Of a DNA stretch of 21,410 bases, positions 1,127-11,540 are shown in pieces (the stretch's first letter is position 1; the number at the start of each line of letters is the position of its first letter). The position numbers and the translations under genes are program-made. The notes under the pieces were generated by a model. It was not told the origin of the DNA. It saw nothing but the letters and a program-made list of their open reading frames with translations, and made no database searches. Source of the stretch: a virus. The stretch spans positions 1-21,410 of the IMG/VR virus record IMGVR_UViG_3300030103_004309. One strand, written 5' to 3'.

Positions 1127-1866
1127 TCCCGACCTATTTTATCCCTTACCCATATACATTCACAATATTCTCCCTGCTGATAATAGGCACAATAGGATTA
1201 ATCATTTATCGAAAGAAAATAAATTGGTATAAGTACTTTCACTCTATGATATTCTCATTTATTTTAGGGGTCGCAGAGATACACAATTTAGAAAACCATG
1301 GAAATGTGCCATCCTGGATATTTCCTGAAGGATCGACACTTCTTGGGGCGGCGTGGGAAAATGTCTACTGGGAAGACATACTATTTGTTCCCGCCTGTTT
1401 TTCAGTATTTTACATGTTTATGTGGTGGATTAAAAGGTTTGATTTTATAAAAAAAGACGTACTCCCTAGATACACATACCCATACCTTATTTGTGCTGCT
1501 GTAATTGTAGAAGCTATGATATTTCAAGTTGCTGGAAAAGGCATCGAGAATCTAATGATAGCATATACACTCATACCTCTTCTAGTGTTTGTTATCTGCT
1601 GTGTTATTAGAAAGCCAAGGCTTAACATAACACACATGGTCACCACACTAATTTTTATATCAGCATTTTCTTCCTCATGGGAGCTACTTAATGTATGGAG
1701 GCAGTGGTGGGTATACGATACGCTATGTGACTTAATGGGTAATAGAGGTTGGATACTTAATAAAAAACTCCATGTTGGCATATTTTTTCAATACGCCATA
1801 AGTGGATTTGTTATAGTTTACGGTAGTGGGACATTCTTTGATAAAAATAACGTACTACTAGATTAA
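1123..1866 (+). CDS. Polytopic membrane protein, possibly lycopene-cyclase-domain-like
   Basis: This 247-residue protein has about seven hydrophobic segments: residues roughly 12-30, 36-54, 86-104, 117-137, 143-162, 169-188 and 217-237. It starts at an ATG coupled to the previous gene, with AGGG upstream. Two halves look related in layout: each has an aromatic-rich stretch (SWIFPEG around 64-70; WRQWWVY around 192-198) before a phenylalanine-rich helix. In the first half the helix begins WEDILF (83-88), which recalls the PxEE-FLFF motif of CrtYc/CrtYd-type lycopene cyclase domains. The second half lacks the acidic pair. The resemblance is by eye and enzymatic activity is not implied; a phage membrane or host-interaction protein is equally possible. 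The stop shares TTAA with the convergent tail gene. Confidence 0.75.
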   Translation: MIPTYFIPYPYTFTIFSLLIIGTIGLIIYRKKINWYKYFHSMIFSFILGVAEIHNLENHGNVPSWIFPEGSTLLGAAWENVYWEDILFVPACFSVFYMFMWWIKRFDFIKKDVLPRYTYPYLICAAVIVEAMIFQVAGKGIENLMIAYTLIPLLVFVICCVIRKPRLNITHMVTTLIFISAFSSSWELLNVWRQWWVYDTLCDLMGNRGWILNKKLHVGIFFQYAISGFVIVYGSGTFFDKNNVLLD

Positions 1867-2381
1867 GGCAGTGTCGCTATTTGTATTATAAATGTCCACG
1901 CTATGTCATCTGAGAAATCAACAAGGTTTCCAGATCCCCAATTAGATGACATAGACGGCTGTATTTCAATATCTACAGTTGTTCCAAAGTACCTAATATG
2001 AGACAAACTTGCTGCAAAATCTTCTGAACATCTAGCATTATCAGAAAATGCCCTCCCAGATGTGCCAAATATATCACTTGACCAATCACCTGCTACTGGT
2101 CTCATGTATATAGGCCCCGTAAATGTCATTGAGCCATTCCCACCGTCAGTCATCAATACACTCACTCTATTATATACCCTACTCATCTCAAGCGTAAACC
2201 CTGTTATATATGATGACTTGTTATTAAAACTTAACTCAACAGCCAATGATGCGACAGATGCGATATTTATTGGGGTAATTGAATCATATAGGTACTCAGT
2301 GTTCTCTTCTATCCTATTCAAATCTGTATCTTCAATACCATCATCGGTATCCCAATCAGTCTTTGGTGTTGTCCATGCCAT
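1863..2381 (-). CDS. Distal tail/virion-associated protein, last gene of the tail operon
   Basis: The likely protein has 172 residues starting MAWTTPKTDWDTDDGIEDTD. The ATG at 2379-2381 is preceded by GGAAGGAAAG at good spacing; an upstream in-frame ATG at 2399 lies inside the previous gene. The opening (W-x-T-P-K-T-x-W, then a D/N-rich stretch and NRIE) is a pattern I know from phage proteins encoded beside tail fibres and baseplates, where it often precedes variable C-termini. The rest is beta-rich with many serine, threonine and glycine residues (SSYITGFTLEMSRVYNRVSV; GPIYMRPV), consistent with an exposed virion domain. It starts one base after the Ig-domain gene ends. Exact role unknown. 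Confidence 0.7.
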   Translation of the reverse strand: MAWTTPKTDWDTDDGIEDTDLNRIEENTEYLYDSITPINIASVASLAVELSFNNKSSYITGFTLEMSRVYNRVSVLMTDGGNGSMTFTGPIYMRPVAGDWSSDIFGTSGRAFSDNARCSEDFAASLSHIRYFGTTVDIEIQPSMSSNWGSGNLVDFSDDIAWTFIIQIATLP

Positions 2382-2382
2382 A

Positions 2383-3408
2383 TTATACTTTCCTTCCATC
2401 TGTGGTCTCTATTAAAGTACCATTATATGATATTTTGTTTTTGATTATCTTAAAATCTCCAAGTACCTCTGTAGCACCACGTTTATACTCTGGTAGCTCT
2501 ATAGTATCACCTAGTTCCAGTGCTGGATTGCCCCTCCAAACTATAGACGTGTCTTTACGGACAGTTTTGTAACTTGTCAATAGCTCCGATGCTATACGTT
2601 CGGCTATAGCTGGAGCCTGTATTAAGTGGTTTTTCGGATAGATATATTCCTGCAACCCGTATGACTTTATCTCTGGAATAGCCTCCTCAACCACAGATTC
2701 TTCACCAGACACATTAATGGGTAGCCCCTCAACCTTCACTTTTGCAGAACCATCAACAACGTCGCTATTTGTGATTGTCAGTTCTACGCCCCAAGGGTAA
2801 TAAGTCTCTGAAGATACTGTTAGAGTAGCACCCACTGCATCAACTAAAGATGTTGTTGCACCAGTCTCAAGCGCAGGCTGCTTCTTGTAATATAAAACGA
2901 AGTCTCTAGTCTCCGAGGGAGTCAAAGTAAAAACTTCTGACATTTTAAATATTTCTTCTGCCACCGTAGCCTCAATAAGGGGTTGAGTTGTTACAACCAC
3001 GCGATTTACAAGCTCTTCAGATTTTGTTGGCTGTTCTCTTGTGTAATAGTCTTGATTTGTCAGAACTATAACTTCAAATACCGCCAGCTCAGCCGTGTTA
3101 CTATCGGCGCTACCAATTGTGTTTGTAGCTTTACAGTATACTGTATCACCATCATTAGATAATGCGGTAATAAAGTCATACGTGGTAGAAGTCTCCCCAA
3201 CTTGCAAGATCCCGTTACGATACCACTGATACGTAATAGGAGCTGTTCCTGTGGCAAGAGCGGTAAACGTAACAATGAGTCCCTGTTCAATGGTCTGACT
3301 TAATGGATGTGTAACAAAAACAGGCCCAGTCCCGAACCCTGCACCTTGCCAAGGGCCAACATTAAGTAGCCCATTGCCTTGCCACGCCCCTATATGATTG
3401 CTTGGCAT
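2383..3408 (-). CDS. Tail protein: Ig-like domain fused to C-terminal half of a hub-like tail protein
   Basis: This 341-residue protein starts at an ATG sharing one base with the previous stop (TAATG), with AGGGGG upstream. It has three parts. Residues 1-28 carry two GxWQG units (GAWQG, GPWQG). Residues about 30-112 are an Ig-like domain with the core YQWYRNG (W62) and TVYCKATN (C92); the partner cysteine of the first sheet is absent. From about 113 (EVIVLTNQDYYTREQPTKSE) the sequence matches, from memory, the second half of siphoviral distal tail proteins. That half has a 'TQPL' strand, a 'YYPWGVELTITN' strand, the helix IAERIASELL, and the conserved WRGNPALELGDTIELPE near residues 292-308. 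The matching first half seems to be the gene at 4808-6049, so this looks like a split tail protein carrying an added Ig domain. Confidence 0.7.
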   Translation of the reverse strand: MPSNHIGAWQGNGLLNVGPWQGAGFGTGPVFVTHPLSQTIEQGLIVTFTALATGTAPITYQWYRNGILQVGETSTTYDFITALSNDGDTVYCKATNTIGSADSNTAELAVFEVIVLTNQDYYTREQPTKSEELVNRVVVTTQPLIEATVAEEIFKMSEVFTLTPSETRDFVLYYKKQPALETGATTSLVDAVGATLTVSSETYYPWGVELTITNSDVVDGSAKVKVEGLPINVSGEESVVEEAIPEIKSYGLQEYIYPKNHLIQAPAIAERIASELLTSYKTVRKDTSIVWRGNPALELGDTIELPEYKRGATEVLGDFKIIKNKISYNGTLIETTDGRKV

Positions 3409-4454
3409 TATTGACCCCCTGCAAATCCAATCCCTACATCAAGACAAGGACTGCCACTTAATAAAGTAAAATCCTCACTATTGTTTGTAGTCGTAGTGAA
3501 TTGTGGGTCAGAAGTAATATTATGAGTGCCTGGAGCTGTGCCTCCATTAATTGTAGTCCCAACAGCGCCAGATGTGTTGGAGTAATAGCAATTATAATCG
3601 CCATAGTACCACGGTGAGTTCAACCCAGAAACAGCCGTAATACCATAACCCCCATTATTAGCGAATATACTATTCCTAATATTCCCTCTAAATGTCTCTG
3701 TCGTAAACTCTAATCCGTGGCTAAAATTGTCATATATAACACTGTTTATCAATGTCATAGCTGTATTACCCACTAAGTTTATTCCGCTACTTGTCGCAGA
3801 TCGGAATATGCGACAAGTTTCAAAAGTTATTATAACGTTACTGGAACCCGTGCCGAAATAATTATAACTATCGTTGTGGTGTATGGCACAATTATTAAAA
3901 ATAACACTACCACTAACGACATTGTACACCCCGTACCTAGCATTGTCATAGATCTCGCAGTCATAGAAATATATAGGATGCATTCTATTTGCGGTACTTG
4001 CTGTACATGTCAAAGATATGCCGTCTGCAGTACCTCCGTGAAACGAACAGTTTACAAATGCATTGTTACGCATTGTGGATGTCCAAGTAGGAAACGCAAA
4101 CGCTACGCTGCCTTGACTGTTAGCGTCAAAATCGATATCTTGATAAAGCATATTTGAGTGATATGCAGAAGAGCACATGTTAGACATCGGGACACTGGCT
4201 ATTATGTACGCTCTTCCTGCTCCGTTGTAAGGAGATCCGTCAACCAAATCAGCGCCGTACCACTCTCTTGAATAAGGCCAGTTGTTTATAGCCGTGGATA
4301 TACTAAACTTATTTGATACATCTGAGCACAGGAACACCCTGTCGTTGCTAGTAGTATTAGTAATAGCATAAGGTATAGTCGCCCAACCTAAAGCAAAGGT
4401 AAGCCCACTATTGCCGTCACTCCCACCAGTCGCACGCACATAATAATCTGCCAT
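3408..4454 (-). CDS. Right-handed beta-helix protein, probable tailspike/receptor-binding component
   Basis: This 348-residue protein starts at an ATG with GAGAGGATAAAAATG. It opens ADYYVRATGGSDGNSGLTFA, the usual opening of bacterial and phage parallel beta-helix proteins. It continues in short rungs rich in N, S, G and aromatic residues ending in turns such as NNAFVNCSFHGG, YFYDCEIYDNARYGVYN, FNNCAIHHND and FETCRIFRSATSSGINL. It closes with DFTLLSGSPCLDVGIGFAGG, the typical 'SPCIDxG' terminal cap. The C-x-I rungs with inward hydrophobics are pectate-lyase-fold features. No catalytic residues can be assigned. Position at the distal end of the tail operon suggests receptor binding or polysaccharide contact. 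No signal peptide is present, as expected for a virion protein. Confidence 0.75.
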   Translation of the reverse strand: MADYYVRATGGSDGNSGLTFALGWATIPYAITNTTSNDRVFLCSDVSNKFSISTAINNWPYSREWYGADLVDGSPYNGAGRAYIIASVPMSNMCSSAYHSNMLYQDIDFDANSQGSVAFAFPTWTSTMRNNAFVNCSFHGGTADGISLTCTASTANRMHPIYFYDCEIYDNARYGVYNVVSGSVIFNNCAIHHNDSYNYFGTGSSNVIITFETCRIFRSATSSGINLVGNTAMTLINSVIYDNFSHGLEFTTETFRGNIRNSIFANNGGYGITAVSGLNSPWYYGDYNCYYSNTSGAVGTTINGGTAPGTHNITSDPQFTTTTNNSEDFTLLSGSPCLDVGIGFAGGQ

Positions 4455-4456
4455 TT

Positions 4457-4795
4457 TTATCCTCTCGTGTTTACCGCTACACTTAAAATAGTTTTAAGCT
4501 TACTGTTATCTTCAGCCTCTAACAACGCAATAAAGTAATCCACGGTACCTCTTACAATGCTGTTTAAATCTGCGCCGTTAACGACAGGACGACCATCTCC
4601 ATCTGTACCATCAGTTCCGTAGGCTGAATCATACATAATTTCCGCTGCGTCATCTGGTATCAATAGCCCCATATCACGAGCGACCCACTCATCATTAACA
4701 CTGTGGCCCACACTATACAGTTGTGCCATTAAGTCTGCAATATGCCTTATCTTTTCATTTGTAAACTTCACTGCTTCACTGTTTGTTATTGCCAT
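4457..4795 (-). CDS. Small phage protein of unknown function in distal-tail module
   Basis: This 112-residue protein begins MAITNSEAVKFTNEKIRHIAD and has a strong site, AAGGGGGGTGTATTATG. The first ~45 residues are helical (ADLMAQLYSVGHSVNDEW). A glycine/aspartate-rich centre (GTDGTDGDGRPVVNGAD) follows, then a C-terminal helical part ending LKTILSVAVNTRG. I recall similar small proteins ('EAVKF.NE.IRP.AD...', 'DGRP..TGA', 'L..V.VNPR') beside tail genes of many phages, without known function. It sits between the first half of the split tail protein and the beta-helix gene. A structural or chaperone role for the distal module is inference only. Confidence 0.75.
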   Translation of the reverse strand: MAITNSEAVKFTNEKIRHIADLMAQLYSVGHSVNDEWVARDMGLLIPDDAAEIMYDSAYGTDGTDGDGRPVVNGADLNSIVRGTVDYFIALLEAEDNSKLKTILSVAVNTRG

Positions 4796-4807
4796 AATAC
4801 ACCCCCC

Positions 4808-6049
4808 TTAAGATTGATAGGTCTTTTCAGGCCCCTCTATAATTAAAATATCTTCTCGGCTCATATAGGCTTGGCCCATACATGCCTCAACTATCGTTCT
4901 AATTGCTTCAAAGTAATTTGTTTTAGAAAACCACGCATAAGGCAAGTCAAAGTTTTGCAAAGACACATCAAGAGACCATTGCAAATCTGCCATAGGAATG
5001 TCGTCCCTCGCCGACTCTAATACCTCACTAGCCAAAGCATAGAGTGTAGTATTCGTTAGCAGAGAAGACCCTTTGTACTCAGCCCTCCTTAGCAGTTCCA
5101 TCCTATCACGACACGACACGCTTACAATAGGAGACTGCTCATTTACTTGCCAGTCACCAGTCCAAAAAGTGCCAAGGGTAACATATTCAAAAGTTCCGTC
5201 TGCTAACTTATAGCCTAAAGACGGGGTGACTTTTCTGTTTTTTGTAAGTACGTTGTCATAGGGAGAATTGGGATTTGCAGGAAAGAAAGGATCTATGATC
5301 TCATTACCATTGACATTTATACTAATATTGTTTAACGACAAATCCACTTCATTAGCGCTAATATTCCCAACAGGTAAAGTTCCGTCTGCTAACACCCGCT
5401 CCTCAAGCAGGTTTATTGATGATATTGTATCACCTGTATATGTCTCCTTGAGTATTGTATAAAACTCTGATATTTTAACAATACGATCAGGAGCGCTCCA
5501 TTTTGTAATAGTAAGAATCATTTTGGTCGCATCATCGATGTTTTCTGATCTTATATCTTTAGTCCACTCTACGGCCGCGTTTCCTGTGACGTTTTCAGTA
5601 TATACAAGTGTCACACCTTCATATATCTCTACATCAAAATCAACAGGATATTCATTGTAAACCTCATCGCCTACGACAAGAATATCCTCTATAGGACGGG
5701 TGTCAAAGGTTAATGTCAACTCTGGATCAGTAACCCAAACTGACGAAGCGTTACATCTTGTGGCTCCATACCAACCAACTTGATTAAATGGGGAACTACC
5801 AGGGTCACCAGGCATGGGATTGTATGTGCCATTAGCTTTTATAACTCCGTCAAGGTGTGCCCATTTCCTAGACACATTCCTAACACCATCATGTACTTGT
5901 TCAATGTTAGAAGACCTGTTATCATCATTTACAACGGCAGTTACAGCCGTATCAATAAACGGAGAAGCCCAAACGATCTCAACTTTTGAGACGACATTCC
6001 TAACTGTTGCCGCTGCTGCTGTATTGAAAGCAGGAGTTACATTTATCAT
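4808..6049 (-). CDS. Distal tail/hub-like protein, N-terminal half
   Basis: This 413-residue protein starts at an ATG with AGGGAGG five bases upstream and overlaps the previous stop by one base. Residues about 40-210 look like a beta-sandwich module of discoidin type (NQVGWYGATR, LTLTFDTRPI, YPVDFDVEIYEG, KMILTITKWSAPDRIVKISE). Residues about 210-400 contain the hub-like segment with LGTFWTGDWQV, SVSCRDRMELLRRAEYKG, YAWF and IRTIVEACMGQAYMSREDIL. It stops at IIEGPEKTYQS. In related phage proteins as I recall them, the chain runs on into strands now found in the gene at 2383-3408. It follows the tape measure and a small tail protein, as expected for a baseplate/tail-tip component. Confidence 0.75.
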   Translation of the reverse strand: MINVTPAFNTAAAATVRNVVSKVEIVWASPFIDTAVTAVVNDDNRSSNIEQVHDGVRNVSRKWAHLDGVIKANGTYNPMPGDPGSSPFNQVGWYGATRCNASSVWVTDPELTLTFDTRPIEDILVVGDEVYNEYPVDFDVEIYEGVTLVYTENVTGNAAVEWTKDIRSENIDDATKMILTITKWSAPDRIVKISEFYTILKETYTGDTISSINLLEERVLADGTLPVGNISANEVDLSLNNISINVNGNEIIDPFFPANPNSPYDNVLTKNRKVTPSLGYKLADGTFEYVTLGTFWTGDWQVNEQSPIVSVSCRDRMELLRRAEYKGSSLLTNTTLYALASEVLESARDDIPMADLQWSLDVSLQNFDLPYAWFSKTNYFEAIRTIVEACMGQAYMSREDILIIEGPEKTYQS

Positions 6050-6420
6050 TATACCTCCCTGAGTGTTACACTAACACCCTCCCACAAACCATCTCCAGTA
6101 GCTAAAACACGCTGATAGCTTAACGGAGACATTAATACAGTATAGTCATTATAAACACTAGAACTAGTATAAATTCTAATAATCAGCTCGTCATTAATAT
6201 CAAACAAATCTAAATATACAGTTAAATCACTTCCATCAATAGCACTATATCTAAGTGTAAACTCTTTTTTTGTAGCGATTATATCCTGTACTAATCTACC
6301 TGAAGCTGTTCGATCTTCACGAGAAAGTATAATATTATTAATATTAAGTTTCCGCCCTAATGCACTCATTAATTGAAGAGTGCCAACAGTTTCACCCATA
6401 TATATATCATTTGCTGACAT
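6049..6420 (-). CDS. Small tail protein following the tape measure
   Basis: This 123-residue protein starts at an ATG sharing one base with the tape measure stop (TAATG). It has a central beta-rich stretch, LSREDRTASGRLVQDIIATK, followed by FTLRYSAIDGSDLTVYLDLF, and ends with YTVLMSPLSYQRVLATGDGL and VSVTLREV. The position directly after the tape measure and before the hub-like protein is where short distal-tail or tail-tip adaptor proteins are encoded. The strand pattern (replaced sequence, then a chain of short beta strands) fits such an adaptor, but I do not recognise a named family with confidence. Confidence 0.7.
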   Translation of the reverse strand: MSANDIYMGETVGTLQLMSALGRKLNINNIILSREDRTASGRLVQDIIATKKEFTLRYSAIDGSDLTVYLDLFDINDELIIRIYTSSSVYNDYTVLMSPLSYQRVLATGDGLWEGVSVTLREV

Positions 6421-9400
6421 TATCTTTCACGTCCTCTCCGCTGATCTTCTTCAACTCTGAATTTTCTCTGTCGCCGTTCTAGCTCTTTCATGCCGTTATC
6501 ATCAGCAACAAGTGTTCCTATATACCAATGATTTTCCACCGCTCGGCCACCAAACCCAGCCAGTTCAGGGACACCCAAGCCGTTTTGGCTCATGTCTCTA
6601 AATTTACTGTATAACGAGTCTGCTAATTGAAGGACACCAGTTTTTAACGGCAATACCATTTCATCTTCTTTACCTTCACCGATAATTGTATTAACTCCGC
6701 CAGCGGTTCTCTTGACTAATCCACCCTTTGCAAGTGGAACGGGACGAGCTAACACAATAGCAGTTTGAGCCGCTGCAATACCGCCAATTACCCCTGCTGC
6801 AATACCTCCAGCAATTGGCCCAAGTTGAGCAAGTGCTGTTATGATAGCTTGGGCTGTACTAACAACAATCCCAAAAACGGCGACGGCTTTATCTGCAATA
6901 GCTTGTTTTCTTTTTAATTCTTTTGTTTTTTTAGCACTTTTTTCTTCAATCTCTCCAATAGCCTTAGCTTTTTCTTCTTCGCTCATAGTCGATTCATTTA
7001 CAGCGTCAATGTCAGCTTGTTTTTTTTCATCAACTTGTCTTATCTGTTCTTTGTATGAGTCAGAGATCATAGACATTATATCTGTTATAGCTTTAGCTGC
7101 TATATTTATACCTGCCTTAATTCGCGCTTTCTTTTTCTCGGCGTTTGCCTCATCTAATTTATCTTTTTTATCTGCTTCGTCTTTAGCAAGTTTTAAGCGT
7201 TCGATAGTATAATATAGCTCTATATCTTGCCGATCTGCACCCAATTTGTCAGCGTTGATGAGTGCATCTTGTCGCTCTACTTCTAGTAACTGTTTTCGTG
7301 ATAGAATAGATTCAGACAATTTTCCTGTCCATTGCGCTTCAAATCTTGATTTATCTGCAAGAGTTTTTTCAGCATTGATACGCTTTTGCTCTTCTAGTTG
7401 TTCTACTTCTTTTTTTTCATCTTCTGCGAGTCTTGATCGTTCACCTGCATAGAACTTTTTAATATTATTAACATCAGCGCCTAGTTTTTCAGCTTGAGCT
7501 AACGCGTCATTATATTCCATCTCAAGGAGTTGTTTTTTTGTTGCGGTTGACTCTGCTAATTTACGTGTCCACTCGCCCTCTAATCGGATTCTTTCTTTCG
7601 CAAGTTCTTTTGCCCTTTTTTGCCTTTCTTTTAAAGCCTCAGCTTCTTCAGGTGTAAGAGTCTTTGTTTTAGTAGCTCCATCTGCCTGCATCATCATTCT
7701 TTTTTCTGCTTCAGCGAGTTCTAGTGTTGATTCTTTTGCCTTTCTAATTGACTCTGCAAGTTCATCTGTCATATTACGCTGTAATAGAGTTTCTTTGCGT
7801 AATTTAGCTCTTGTTATTATCGCTTGCTTTTCGGCTGATTCCATCTCTGCGACGGCTTTTCTCGCTTTTTTAACTTTAGCCTCTAGGCTTGGAAATACGC
7901 TAGCAATTCCTTCTACCATTTTTAACGCAGATTTTAGAATCATAAAAAAGCTTAACTTTAAAACAGAGGCTCCCTGTTGAACGGCATAAGAAACAGCCTC
8001 CCAAGTTGCAATCATCGCTTTTCTAAAAGTCTCATTGTTTTTATAGAGCCAAATTGTAGCGGCAACAAGTGCAACTATTAAAGTAATAACAGCTCCAATT
8101 GGGTTGGCTGACATAGCAACATTTAAAAGCAGTACCCCTTTTTTTACGAGTGCTAAAACAGGCACTAATGTTTTAAGAATCATTACTATTTTTCCAAAAA
8201 ACATAACTAACGGGCCAATAACTACAAGCATAGCAGTAATTGTAATTGTTGTTTTTTTAACCCCTTCAGGTAAACTATTAAACCAATCCACCAAGGTTTT
8301 TAGTTTCCCAACCCACTCTTCTATAATTGGCAATAGCTGGTCTTTAATAATTGGGATCAAAGATTTTGATACAACTATTGCTACATTTTGCAACCTATTA
8401 CCAATAATTTTTGCTTGAGCGGTTAAAGATTTAAGTTGTTTCTCCGCGACCTTATCAGTAGTACCGCCAGCCATTCGCAATTCTTTTTCATATTTACGGA
8501 TACTTTCAGACGTTCCAAGAAGTGCCGCCGTTGCTGAAATAGATTTATCTTGAAACCCAAGTAGCCCAAGCTCTGACCGCTTCTGCTCATCTGTCATTCC
8601 TAGTAATCTTTTTTCTAGGTCTTGTATTATATCTGCCATGTTACGCATTTCACCAGAACTATCAAAAACAGCAATCCCAGCATCCTTAAACGCTTTCTTG
8701 TTTTTAATATTTGCAGTTTGTAAATCCCTTAAAACAATATTTAGAGATTCACCCGAAGCCGTCCCCTTTAATCCTTGATCGGCAAAAACAGCTAAAACAG
8801 CAGCACCCTCTTCAACATCTTTTCCAAGTAATCGAAGCGCAGCACCAGCTTTATTAGTCAATGACTCTGAAAACTGCTCAACAGAAGCATTTGCTAATGT
8901 GTTTGCTTTAACCAATACATCAGATACACGAGCCAAATCTTCAGAGCTTAACCCAAGTGCAGACTGTGCATCAGTTAATAAATCCGTTGCTTTAGCTAAA
9001 TCAAAAGCTCCAGCCTGTGCAAATTTTGCAACTGTTGGCAATGCTTTAATTGATTCGGCAGCACCAAGCCCAGCAGAGGCTAAGAAAAAATACGCTTCGG
9101 CTGCTTGAGTAGCACTAGCCGTTGTAGTCTCGGATACTTGCATTGCTGCTTTTTCCATTTTATCACGCATCTCGTCAGAGACATCAGACATAATCGCTAA
9201 TGATTTTGTCATAGCGTCTTCGAAATCAGCCCCAAATTTTAAAGCCGCACCACCTGCCGCAATAAGTGGCACGGTTAAATTTTTCGTTAGATTAGAGCCT
9301 ATTCTCGTAAGAGTTCTACTAGTCCGCGTAAGAGTTCTTTGCAATCTTCTAGCTCTTTGATCGACACTACCAAGGCCTTCACGTACATTGTCAAGACCTC

Positions 9401-9443
9401 TTATCCCAATCATCCCAAACAATCTAAATACTGGTCTTGCCAC
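6420..9443 (-). CDS. Tail tape measure protein, TP901 type
   Basis: This 1007-residue protein sets tail length and occupies the tail lumen. The start is GTG (9443-9441), supported by AAGGGG six bases upstream, and overlaps the chaperone T frame by 20 bp. Residues about 65-370 form the TP901-like core (FEDAMTKSLAIMSDVSDEM, AAEAYFFLASAGL, AAVLAVFADQGLKGTASGES, LLGFQDKSISATAALLG). Hydrophobic stretches lie at about 395-470 and 855-895. Long charged coiled coils fill 500-840 and include a tandem repeat of 80 residues at 622-701 and 702-781. The C-terminus has LVKRTAGGVNTIIGEGKEDE and MVLPLKTG, a common tape-measure ending. At about 1.5 angstrom per residue the expected tail is near 150 nm, typical of siphoviruses. 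Confidence 0.95.
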   Translation of the reverse strand: MARPVFRLFGMIGIRGLDNVREGLGSVDQRARRLQRTLTRTSRTLTRIGSNLTKNLTVPLIAAGGAALKFGADFEDAMTKSLAIMSDVSDEMRDKMEKAAMQVSETTTASATQAAEAYFFLASAGLGAAESIKALPTVAKFAQAGAFDLAKATDLLTDAQSALGLSSEDLARVSDVLVKANTLANASVEQFSESLTNKAGAALRLLGKDVEEGAAVLAVFADQGLKGTASGESLNIVLRDLQTANIKNKKAFKDAGIAVFDSSGEMRNMADIIQDLEKRLLGMTDEQKRSELGLLGFQDKSISATAALLGTSESIRKYEKELRMAGGTTDKVAEKQLKSLTAQAKIIGNRLQNVAIVVSKSLIPIIKDQLLPIIEEWVGKLKTLVDWFNSLPEGVKKTTITITAMLVVIGPLVMFFGKIVMILKTLVPVLALVKKGVLLLNVAMSANPIGAVITLIVALVAATIWLYKNNETFRKAMIATWEAVSYAVQQGASVLKLSFFMILKSALKMVEGIASVFPSLEAKVKKARKAVAEMESAEKQAIITRAKLRKETLLQRNMTDELAESIRKAKESTLELAEAEKRMMMQADGATKTKTLTPEEAEALKERQKRAKELAKERIRLEGEWTRKLAESTATKKQLLEMEYNDALAQAEKLGADVNNIKKFYAGERSRLAEDEKKEVEQLEEQKRINAEKTLADKSRFEAQWTGKLSESILSRKQLLEVERQDALINADKLGADRQDIELYYTIERLKLAKDEADKKDKLDEANAEKKKARIKAGINIAAKAITDIMSMISDSYKEQIRQVDEKKQADIDAVNESTMSEEEKAKAIGEIEEKSAKKTKELKRKQAIADKAVAVFGIVVSTAQAIITALAQLGPIAGGIAAGVIGGIAAAQTAIVLARPVPLAKGGLVKRTAGGVNTIIGEGKEDEMVLPLKTGVLQLADSLYSKFRDMSQNGLGVPELAGFGGRAVENHWYIGTLVADDNGMKELERRQRKFRVEEDQRRGRER
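7149..7580 (-). repeat. Two tandem 80-residue repeats inside the tape measure
   Basis: Residues 622-701 and 702-781 of the tape measure align with no gaps. The repeat starts EGEWTRKLAESTATKKQLLE in copy 1 and EAQWTGKLSESILSRKQLLE in copy 2. About half of the first 64 positions are identical, including W-T-x-K-L, KQLLE, DAL and KLGAD. The two tryptophan codons lie exactly 240 bp apart (7569-7571 and 7329-7331). Given coordinates cover both conserved cores. Confidence 0.85.
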
Positions 9444-10185: not shown

Positions 10186-10746
10186 CTAAGTGTTAGGCCA
10201 GTACATTGTCCAAGGTTCGGTATCTAAATCTGTTGGGTCTTGATGTGCTGTAAACGTCACTGCAATAACGCCTTCTTCTTTGTCAGTTAAAGACAATTCA
10301 AAGTTACCGTCAGAAAGTGCATTTGTTAATTTAAAAGCACAAGCTCCAGCGGTCGTGCCAGAGATTTCACCAACTAAAGTTATGTCAGACAGATAATCAC
10401 CTAAAGCAATTTGAGTATCTCTTGTGATAGCATCCCAGTCACTATTAAACGCAGCACTTACCGAAGCAGGAAGCACATATTTTAATTGTGTTAAAGTATG
10501 CTCTAAGAAATTTACAGTAAGTTTTCCAACGCTTCTTGTAATACGTCGCGATCCCTTTGTTGGGCTGTGTGCTCCATCCGCTTCCATTTCTCTGACTTCT
10601 TGCTCTATAGAGAAAGAATTCCCACCACGTGTTGCACCCAGTAGTGTTCCAGGTGAAGAGAAATCAGTAAAACCAACATACACAGCTCCACTATCAATTA
10701 TCATATTATTGTAAGTGTCTGCACTTACTCCATGATGTCTAGCCAT
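10186..10746 (-). CDS. Major tail (tube) protein
   Basis: This 186-residue protein has the site TATAGGAGTTTAGAAAAATG. It forms the tail tube. Features I recognise from siphoviral tube proteins are DSGAVYVGFTDFSSPGTLLG, the acidic 'EQEVREMEADGAHSP' segment, GSRRITRSVGKLTVNF, and a C-terminal beta-rich part ending in the strands LSLTDKEEGVIAVTFTAHQD. The position upstream of the chaperone pair and tape measure is the standard one. The short gaps around it suggest translation from a shared operon transcript, and its strong ribosome binding site fits a high-copy virion protein. Confidence 0.85.
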   Translation of the reverse strand: MARHHGVSADTYNNMIIDSGAVYVGFTDFSSPGTLLGATRGGNSFSIEQEVREMEADGAHSPTKGSRRITRSVGKLTVNFLEHTLTQLKYVLPASVSAAFNSDWDAITRDTQIALGDYLSDITLVGEISGTTAGACAFKLTNALSDGNFELSLTDKEEGVIAVTFTAHQDPTDLDTEPWTMYWPNT

Positions 10747-10772
10747 TTTTCTAAACTCCTATATTTAAATTA

Positions 10773-11108
10773 TTATGCACCAAGTGCAATTACTGCAACA
10801 GTCAACGTCGTAACATCATCATAAGTGATACCCACTTTTCCATCACCATCATTAAAACGCCCAGTGTTAAACGGACCACACATTTCCTCGCTACCAGCTG
10901 GAATTGTAATATCGACATTGTGGTCAAATCCTTGCGAGCAATTTACTAAACTATTAATAGTCGCAACAATAGGAGAACCACTACCATTTTTAATATGTAA
11001 AAATGTTCTGCCATTATTTACAAAATCATCTCCACCGCCTGCCGCCGAATTATATGTAGGAGTCAAACTAGTATCTAGCGTAATGTTTTCTACTGCTAAT
11101 GTCGCCAT
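10773..11108 (-). CDS. Small beta-rich virion protein, possibly a decoration protein
   Basis: This 111-residue protein has the site GAGGTAAAAAATG. It is rich in T, G, N and V and predicted almost wholly beta: ITLDTSLTPTYNSAAGGGDD, FVNNGRTFLHIKNGSGSPIV, ITIPAGSEEMCGPFNTGRFN and TTLTVAVIALGA. The pattern 'FVNNGRTFL.IKNGSGS....TI' with a 'PAG' turn and 'GPF....F.D' occurs in small phage proteins that I recall as structural but without firm function. It lies between the tail terminator and the tube gene, so a tail or capsid decoration role is inferred from context and composition. Confidence 0.7.
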   Translation of the reverse strand: MATLAVENITLDTSLTPTYNSAAGGGDDFVNNGRTFLHIKNGSGSPIVATINSLVNCSQGFDHNVDITIPAGSEEMCGPFNTGRFNDGDGKVGITYDDVTTLTVAVIALGA

Positions 11109-11111
11109 TTT

Positions 11112-11540
11112 TTACCTCACAATTTGCTGCATCCAAGCATAACGCGAACCACGCCCACTTATCTGCATATTATAATGAACTATTTTTATATCTCTATTAT
11201 CAACAAAGCCTTTTGTTTCTCTGTAAAGTCTTATTGTTTTATATAGGTCACAATTTAAAATCTCTCTATCTATAGCAAACTCAACTGCCATAGTTAAAGC
11301 TCTAATATTAACAGTGTCACTTTTCCCACCGTAAATGTCTATATCTATTAAAAAATTATCAACTGCCAAATTATCTGACGGTATAGTTTGCACATCTAAA
11401 ACAAGGTAAACTCTCTCAGCTTCCTGTGGTGCTATATCGCTAAATATAGCAGGGCTACCATTAAAAGTATTGACGTATTGAGTTACATTGAGATCAGTAC
11501 GCAAATGTTTAATTATAGAAGCCTCAACAGTAACACCCAT
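11112..11540 (-). CDS. Tail terminator / tail completion protein
   Basis: This 142-residue protein opens MGVTVEASIIKHLRTDLNVT and continues with VNTFNGSPAIFSDIAPQEAE and YLVLDVQTIPSD, then LIDIDIYGGKSDTVNIRALT. This order (helix, 'I.P..A..PY/VYL V', paired strands, then a helix of N-I-R-A-L) is that of the DUF3168/gp17-type tail terminators which cap the tube and join it to the head. Gene order, directly after the gp10-like protein, agrees. Ribosome binding is modest (GGAG 11 nt upstream), and the gene lies one base after the previous stop. Confidence 0.75.
   Translation of the reverse strand: MGVTVEASIIKHLRTDLNVTQYVNTFNGSPAIFSDIAPQEAERVYLVLDVQTIPSDNLAVDNFLIDIDIYGGKSDTVNIRALTMAVEFAIDREILNCDLYKTIRLYRETKGFVDNRDIKIVHYNMQISGRGSRYAWMQQIVR

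Follow-up and report, generated by a model that had tools for sequence, protein, structure and literature searches.

How can a protein at the core of a phage tail tip be encoded by two genes with other genes lying between them? This question is raised by IMG/VR virus record IMGVR_UViG_3300030103_004309, whose 21.4-kb sequence (positions 1 to 21,410; hereafter the window) carries on its minus strand the genes for a terminase, a portal, a ClpP-type protease, an HK97-type capsid and a tape measure protein. An earlier reading of the sequence, made without database searches (the original prediction), had proposed that a tail protein gene of this virus was split in two by an inserted cassette. Here we compare this locus with its relatives; the comparison supports the insertion of a cassette and indicates that the divided protein is a gp27-like baseplate hub.

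Results

Two genes matching one single-chain protein

The four genes of the locus were found in the predicted order and at the predicted coordinates (4808-6049, 4457-4795, 3408-4454 and 2383-3408, all on the minus strand). In BLASTP comparisons, the 413-residue product of the first gene aligned with residues 1 to ~400 of nine single-chain relatives (33-52% identity, E 1e-60 to 1e-138), while the 341-residue product of the last gene, from residue ~90-119 to its end at 341, aligned with the region from ~380-425 to the end of the same nine proteins (26-46% identity, E 1e-21 to 1e-64). Both halves matched these relatives in order and without overlap. In the 652-residue protein of locus L014 they cover residues 1-414 (48% identity) and 425-649 (35% identity), and in that of L005 residues 550-916 and 922-1154. 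The independently built single-chain family phrog_13879 was matched by the first half at profile positions 1-380 (E 4.5e-40) and by the second at 412-537 (E 3.7e-6). At the joint, the single chain of L005 reads VLIIEGPSVLTSSVTSVLTIGKDDYFAREQPAKSEELVN, whereas the window has ILIIEGPEKTYQS, ending in a stop codon, and VIVLTNQDYYTREQPTKSEELVN on separate genes; only a linker of ~12-15 residues differs from the single chain, and the core is complete. At the level of sequence, it is confirmed that gene 4808-6049 and residues ~113-341 of gene 2383-3408 correspond to the first and second halves of one protein. The original prediction had placed the continuation of the tail protein at about residue 113, in agreement with these alignments, and the nine relatives plus phrog_13879 are the single-chain homologues that such a split would lead one to expect.

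Homologues of the 413-residue protein that end at the same place would speak against a split. Such proteins do occur (L002, L006, L016, L019, L020, L038 and L065-L067), but in each case the second half follows downstream, and they are therefore further split hubs rather than counter-examples. Only distant relatives of the hub were found among known phages, a sequence search of the PDB gave no match, and a scan of cellular genomes revealed no relative.

Conservation of the split

Contigs from two other metagenomes (L002 and L003) carry the same five genes in the same order, with the same split and the same cargo. Between the window and L002, the proportion of synonymous differences (pS) is 0.75-0.84 and that of nonsynonymous differences (pN) 0.13-0.20 in the first half, the 112-residue gene, the beta-helix gene, the Ig (immunoglobulin-like) part and the second half; only the contrast of pS and pN was used, because the synonymous divergence (dS) is infinite or unreliable at this distance. 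The beta-helix proteins of the two loci are 76% identical. Every piece of the split arrangement is under purifying selection, with synonymous sites near saturation.

Predicted fold of the hub

An AlphaFold2 model of the single-chain protein of L014, built with 22 relatives, reached a mean confidence (pLDDT) of 84.7 and a predicted template modelling (TM) score of 0.76. In a Foldseek search of the PDB, its top matches were all gp27-like hubs (best E 6.6e-13, TM score by target length up to 0.69), among them contractile-injection hubs, VgrG, Mu gp44, MuSo2, Milano, phiCD508, T4 gp27, Listeria Tal 3gs9 and NF5 Tal. Because baseplate hubs occupy the top ranks throughout, the model of this relative identifies the split protein of the window as a baseplate hub of the gp27 type (Tal). 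The label given earlier, distal tail protein (Dit) in the strict sense, was not sustained: among the 50 best PDB matches, hub/VgrG-type and tail-tip hub structures were the only ones recognisable, and none was a Dit. The position of the gene is also that of a hub, following the tape measure gene and a 123-residue gene, and the same order is seen in relatives.

Confidence is high in the model of the window's second hub half (pLDDT mostly 87-96 for residues 131-280 and 73-87 beyond), which keeps the strand order of the L014 chain; its best PDB matches were the Chi and T5 tail tips, with marginal E-values. The joint maps to loop 412-424 of the L014 model, a linker after the alpha/beta domain, and the first half, whose last 100 residues contain a single Cys (C390), ends there. 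The other insertion sites of the family also lie at or beside loops.

Origin of the inserted genes

The Ig-like and beta-helix modules named in the original prediction were both recovered in Pfam searches (Table 1). The 112-residue gene had no match in phage databases and none in known phages. Three counterpart genes were found outside the hub gene in two related loci, L039, in which the hub is encoded by one gene, and L057, whose hub is almost identical but apparently frameshifted (L057 was set aside from the splits as a probable frameshift). The L039 cassette lies ~2.7 kb downstream of the hub and consists of a 105-residue gene (phmmer E 6.4e-16 and 41% identity to the 112-residue protein of the window), a beta-helix gene (E 2.7e-5 to that of the window) and a gene starting MDIGAIQSGGWDIGALQ. 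L057 likewise carries, downstream of its hub, a homologue of the 112-residue gene, a beta-helix gene and a gene starting MNIGALQTGGWNIGALQ. Since the three counterpart genes stand outside the hub gene in these loci, sequence comparison supports the view that the insert was brought into the hub gene as a cassette. In the window, the hub's second half has acquired the third cassette gene as its N-terminal part. The single-chain homologues, the conserved copies and these external counterparts together lend support to the original claim of a single-chain tail protein split by a working cassette.

A (D)IGAxE/Q strand commonly terminates beta-helix proteins of this type. The beta-helix gene of the window ends with SPCLDVGIGFAGGQ and a stop codon, without a (D)IGAxQ end strand. 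The beta-helix genes of the window, L002, L039 and L057 all end immediately ahead of an IGAxQ stretch that opens the next gene, and the beta-helix of L016 retains a (D)IGAxE/Q strand in the same chain; the GxWQG units of the window are therefore best read as the end strand of the beta-helix, moved to the next gene.

Recurrence across hub loci

Two profile scans of IMG/VR yielded about 110 hub loci, which were sorted with profiles of the two halves; a second-half profile (A2) found no new contigs. After dereplication 66 hubs remained, 12 split at the same joint as in the window and 8 split elsewhere. At this joint, ten loci (L004, L006, L012, L016, L019, L020, L038, L065, L066 and L067) have other cargo or none. 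L004 carries a LamG domain on the first half together with a 782-residue gene, and in L006 and L065 a beta-helix is fused to the second half (recognised by eye in L006 and by its end motif in L065), these beta-helices not being alignable to that of the window beyond the short end motif. A Gp80-type small gene with LamG, propeller or other genes is present in L019, L020, L038 and L066, while L012 (TGA-C-ATG) and L067 (TAATG) are split without cargo. In L016, the cargo is a beta-helix-like gene fused to an extra copy of the tail-tube protein (L016:9185-10684, between the hub halves; 40% identical to window positions 10186-10746, E 9e-34), a fusion that might tether cargo to the tail.

A second site, at profile position ~276 (a hairpin tip), contains in-frame inserts of LamG or carbohydrate-binding modules (CBM) in some relatives and whole genes in close kin. 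A hub split at 276 has unusual tail-tip cargo, a GDSL-type hydrolase and a hexapeptide acyltransferase (PglD-like), between its parts (L105:5158-7163). Another such hub has its two parts (L060 and L089) on the plus strand of a single 42.9-kb contig, at 8.6 kb and 38.5 kb; either the contig is circularly permuted with a long insert, or the rearrangement is real.

The split and single-chain forms occur as sister pairs (L004/L005 and L006/L014; 100/100 support), and well-supported branches of the tree force at least five changes of split state at the joint; this figure is the fewest changes required rather than a count of dated events, and it could be blurred by recombination inside the hub gene. 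The more distant hubs of Flavonifractor phages are single chains.

Several loci show further rearrangement of the hub gene. In L038, the second half opens with part of the N-terminal module of the same hub, which is thus present twice (L038:9635-10099, profile 38-195). L022 has a second half without the middle part (profile 28-118), and L056 has a partial duplication of it; this part therefore looks exchangeable. The duplicated and rearranged hub gene of L061 (7980-9996), whose second copy is truncated, was not counted among the splits. In L006, the gene at 10699-11421, directly after the second half and before the conserved TPKxDW gene, has a NUMOD3 motif (E 8.5e-6) and, by eye, a GIY-YIG-like start. 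It is possibly a homing endonuclease that could have helped to move cassettes.

Gene order and neighbouring genes

The features of the locus are collected in Table 1. The genes are tightly packed, with 12 nt after the first hub half and 2 nt between the 112-residue and beta-helix genes; a TAATG overlap precedes gene 2383-3408, and TATAATG precedes the 413-residue gene. The 123-residue gene has a homologue in 84 loci and adjoins the hub wherever checked; from its size and position, it likely encodes a Dit-type tail protein. The start (~35 residues) of gene 1863-2399 has N-terminal phmmer matches in 48 loci, with otherwise unrelated continuations, which suggests an anchor with swappable heads.

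Table 1. Features of the split hub locus (positions in the window)
Feature	Position	Strand	Supporting matches
Tape measure protein	6420..9443	-	phrog_1533 E 1.8e-94
123-residue gene following the tape measure gene, immediately upstream of the hub	6049..6420	-	phrog_1194 E 1e-5
First hub half, 413 residues; N-terminal beta-rich module, gp27-like first barrel, alpha/beta domain (predicted)	4808..6049	-	phrog_13879, nine single-chain relatives, L014 hub fold
112-residue cassette gene, first gene of the insert	4457..4795	-	69% identity in L002; 41% to free-standing homologues of L039 and L057
Beta-helix protein, 348 residues, second cassette gene	3408..4454	-	Pfam Beta_helix (PF13229) E 4e-11
Two IGxWQ units (HIGAWQG, VGPWQG), start of gene 2383-3408	3328..3408	-	Counterpart: start of the third cassette gene in L039/L057
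Ig-like domain before the second hub half	3076..3324	-	Pfam Ig_3 E 3.6e-6 (slightly below the Pfam cut-off); phrog_3995 and phrog_9239 tail proteins E ~2e-8
Second hub half, residues 113-341 of the 341-residue protein, stop included	2383..3072	-	Begins VIVLTNQDYYTREQPTKSEELVN
Gene after the second half; conserved N-terminal ~35 residues (TPKTDW...DLNRIE), rest variable	1863..2399	-	

Discussion

The overall best explanation of these observations, which we hold with considerable confidence, is that insertion of a cassette split the hub gene of a siphophage-type tail and that the two resulting chains pair into one hub equipped with adhesion modules. We infer that an ancestral single-chain gene was interrupted at a surface linker (~12-15 residues) between the first and second halves by genes for the 112-residue protein, the beta-helix and a protein with IGAxQ repeats and an Ig domain, and that the third of these was joined to the second half by an in-frame fusion. 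Both halves would be made as individual chains from a single compact operon, would fold and pair like their single-chain relatives, and would co-assemble into a trimeric hub containing three of each. It has been described that a gp27-type hub fits the sixfold tail since two of its domains each contact one subunit of the Dit ring (PMC7291167); as the split appears to fall between the two Dit-contacting barrels, each half would bring one barrel. The new N-terminus of the second half would display the Ig domain, the new chain ends would carry outward-facing cargo, and the IGAWQ strands would plausibly dock the separately encoded beta-helix, so that an adhesion module would project laterally from the tail tip.

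Some observations weigh against this scenario. The Ig and IGAWQ part of the 341-residue protein was modelled with low confidence, and the link between the beta-helix genes of the window and L039 is weak (E 2.7e-5), repeat folds being prone to such matches. Moreover, the inferred direction of change, from single chain to split, relies on most relatives being single chain, and the root of the tree is not fixed.

Other explanations have to be considered. The second half might now be a separate adhesin or fibre with Ig and IGAWQ modules, the first half alone serving as the hub. The gain of extra N-terminal modules by the second half in most cargo-bearing lineages (not L004 or L016), and the presence of the first barrel in the first half alone, would fit this proposal, but the core residues of the single-chain form and every strand predicted in it are retained in the second half, the halves co-occur in order where the contig allows, and two lineages (L012 and L067) are split without any cargo. 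Taking into account also that each subunit of a gp27-like ring must supply both barrels to fit the sixfold tail (PMC7291167), we regard a separate adhesin as improbable. Still less probable is that an intron, a split intein or frameshifting joins the halves, post-transcriptionally or post-translationally, into one working chain. Interrupted phage genes that undergo splicing are well known, and the junction between the beta-helix gene and the second half is a 1-nt overlap in the -1 frame. A frameshift at this overlap, however, could fuse nothing but the beta-helix to the second half and would leave the two hub halves apart; the interval is filled by conserved protein genes under purifying selection, and in each split locus inspected both halves have their own start and stop. 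Searches for interrupted-gene elements found no Rfam intron or other Rfam match, no intein family in Pfam and no tRNA.

It is very improbable that the split reflects breakage of the gene or an error of assembly or sequencing. Frameshifts do occur in the data set, L057 appearing to be one, but the same arrangement is present in three metagenome contigs with near-saturated synonymous sites and conserved proteins, the genes have proper starts and stops, and the arrangement recurs in other lineages. Assembly or sequencing error was rejected on the basis of this conservation, and the original description of a working arrangement rather than an assembly break stands on the same evidence.

A hub formed by two chains, with genes in between, is already known, given the precedent of lambda and the gene transfer agent RcGTA. 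In lambda, hub domain (HD) I is on gpL and HDII-IV are on gpJ, with genes K and I between them, gene I matching the plug domain of T5; the gp27-like hub is one chain in T5 (pb3), and gp13/gp14/gp15 of RcGTA are arranged like lambda (PMC10721106). As in the window, the hub domains of these systems are distributed over two genes, with tail-tip genes between them and the first ring barrel on the first protein. The lambda hub is, however, divided inside the HDII-insertion domain, with an Fe-S domain on the first protein, whereas that of the window appears to be divided elsewhere, at the linker after the alpha/beta domain. Gene I of lambda is the counterpart of an internal plug domain, while the insert of the window is receptor-type cargo, and the window-type split, unlike that of lambda, recurs on several branches with varied cargo beside single-chain sisters. 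The lambda/RcGTA case was the only one that our search of the literature for a hub divided at this joint returned. What differs from this precedent is the apparent division site, the variable receptor-type cargo and the recurrence beside single-chain sisters.

The Tal/gp27-like hubs (Listeria 3gs9, Mu gp44, T4 gp27, phrog_13879) share the fold, with its four hub domains, and likewise follow the tape measure and a small tail protein in the genome, but are one chain, whereas the hub of the window is two chains with a long N-terminal beta-rich module. In evolved Dit and evolved Tal, adhesion (carbohydrate-binding) modules are inserted in loops of hub-type proteins (PMC7291167). The in-frame LamG/CBM inserts at other loops of this hub family resemble them, whereas the insertion in the window breaks the chain and brings whole genes. 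Two chains also keep function in a phage nrdA split by a homing endonuclease (Friedrich et al. 2007, cited in PMC8351571); there the insert is the endonuclease gene, while in the window it consists of tail-tip genes.

The usual picture of a hub protein is a single rigid core that bears adhesion modules at its ends or as in-frame insertions. We tentatively suggest, as an idea that may well prove incorrect, that the hub is a general loading platform, in which ~5 loops (profile ~41, 106, 276, 322 and the 391 joint) take adhesion or enzyme cargo in frame or by a cut of the chain, and cut ends carry IGAxQ strands that dock separate receptor modules. If so, splitting would be a recurrent way to load the hub with independently exchangeable modules. 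Automated annotation misses split hubs of this kind because unrelated domains mask their second half. Among close relatives, the same hub core may be a single chain or two chains, and the gap is filled differently; the sister pairs L004/L005 and L006/L014 can therefore be used to test the tolerance of an essential ring protein to cutting and the exchange of binding modules.

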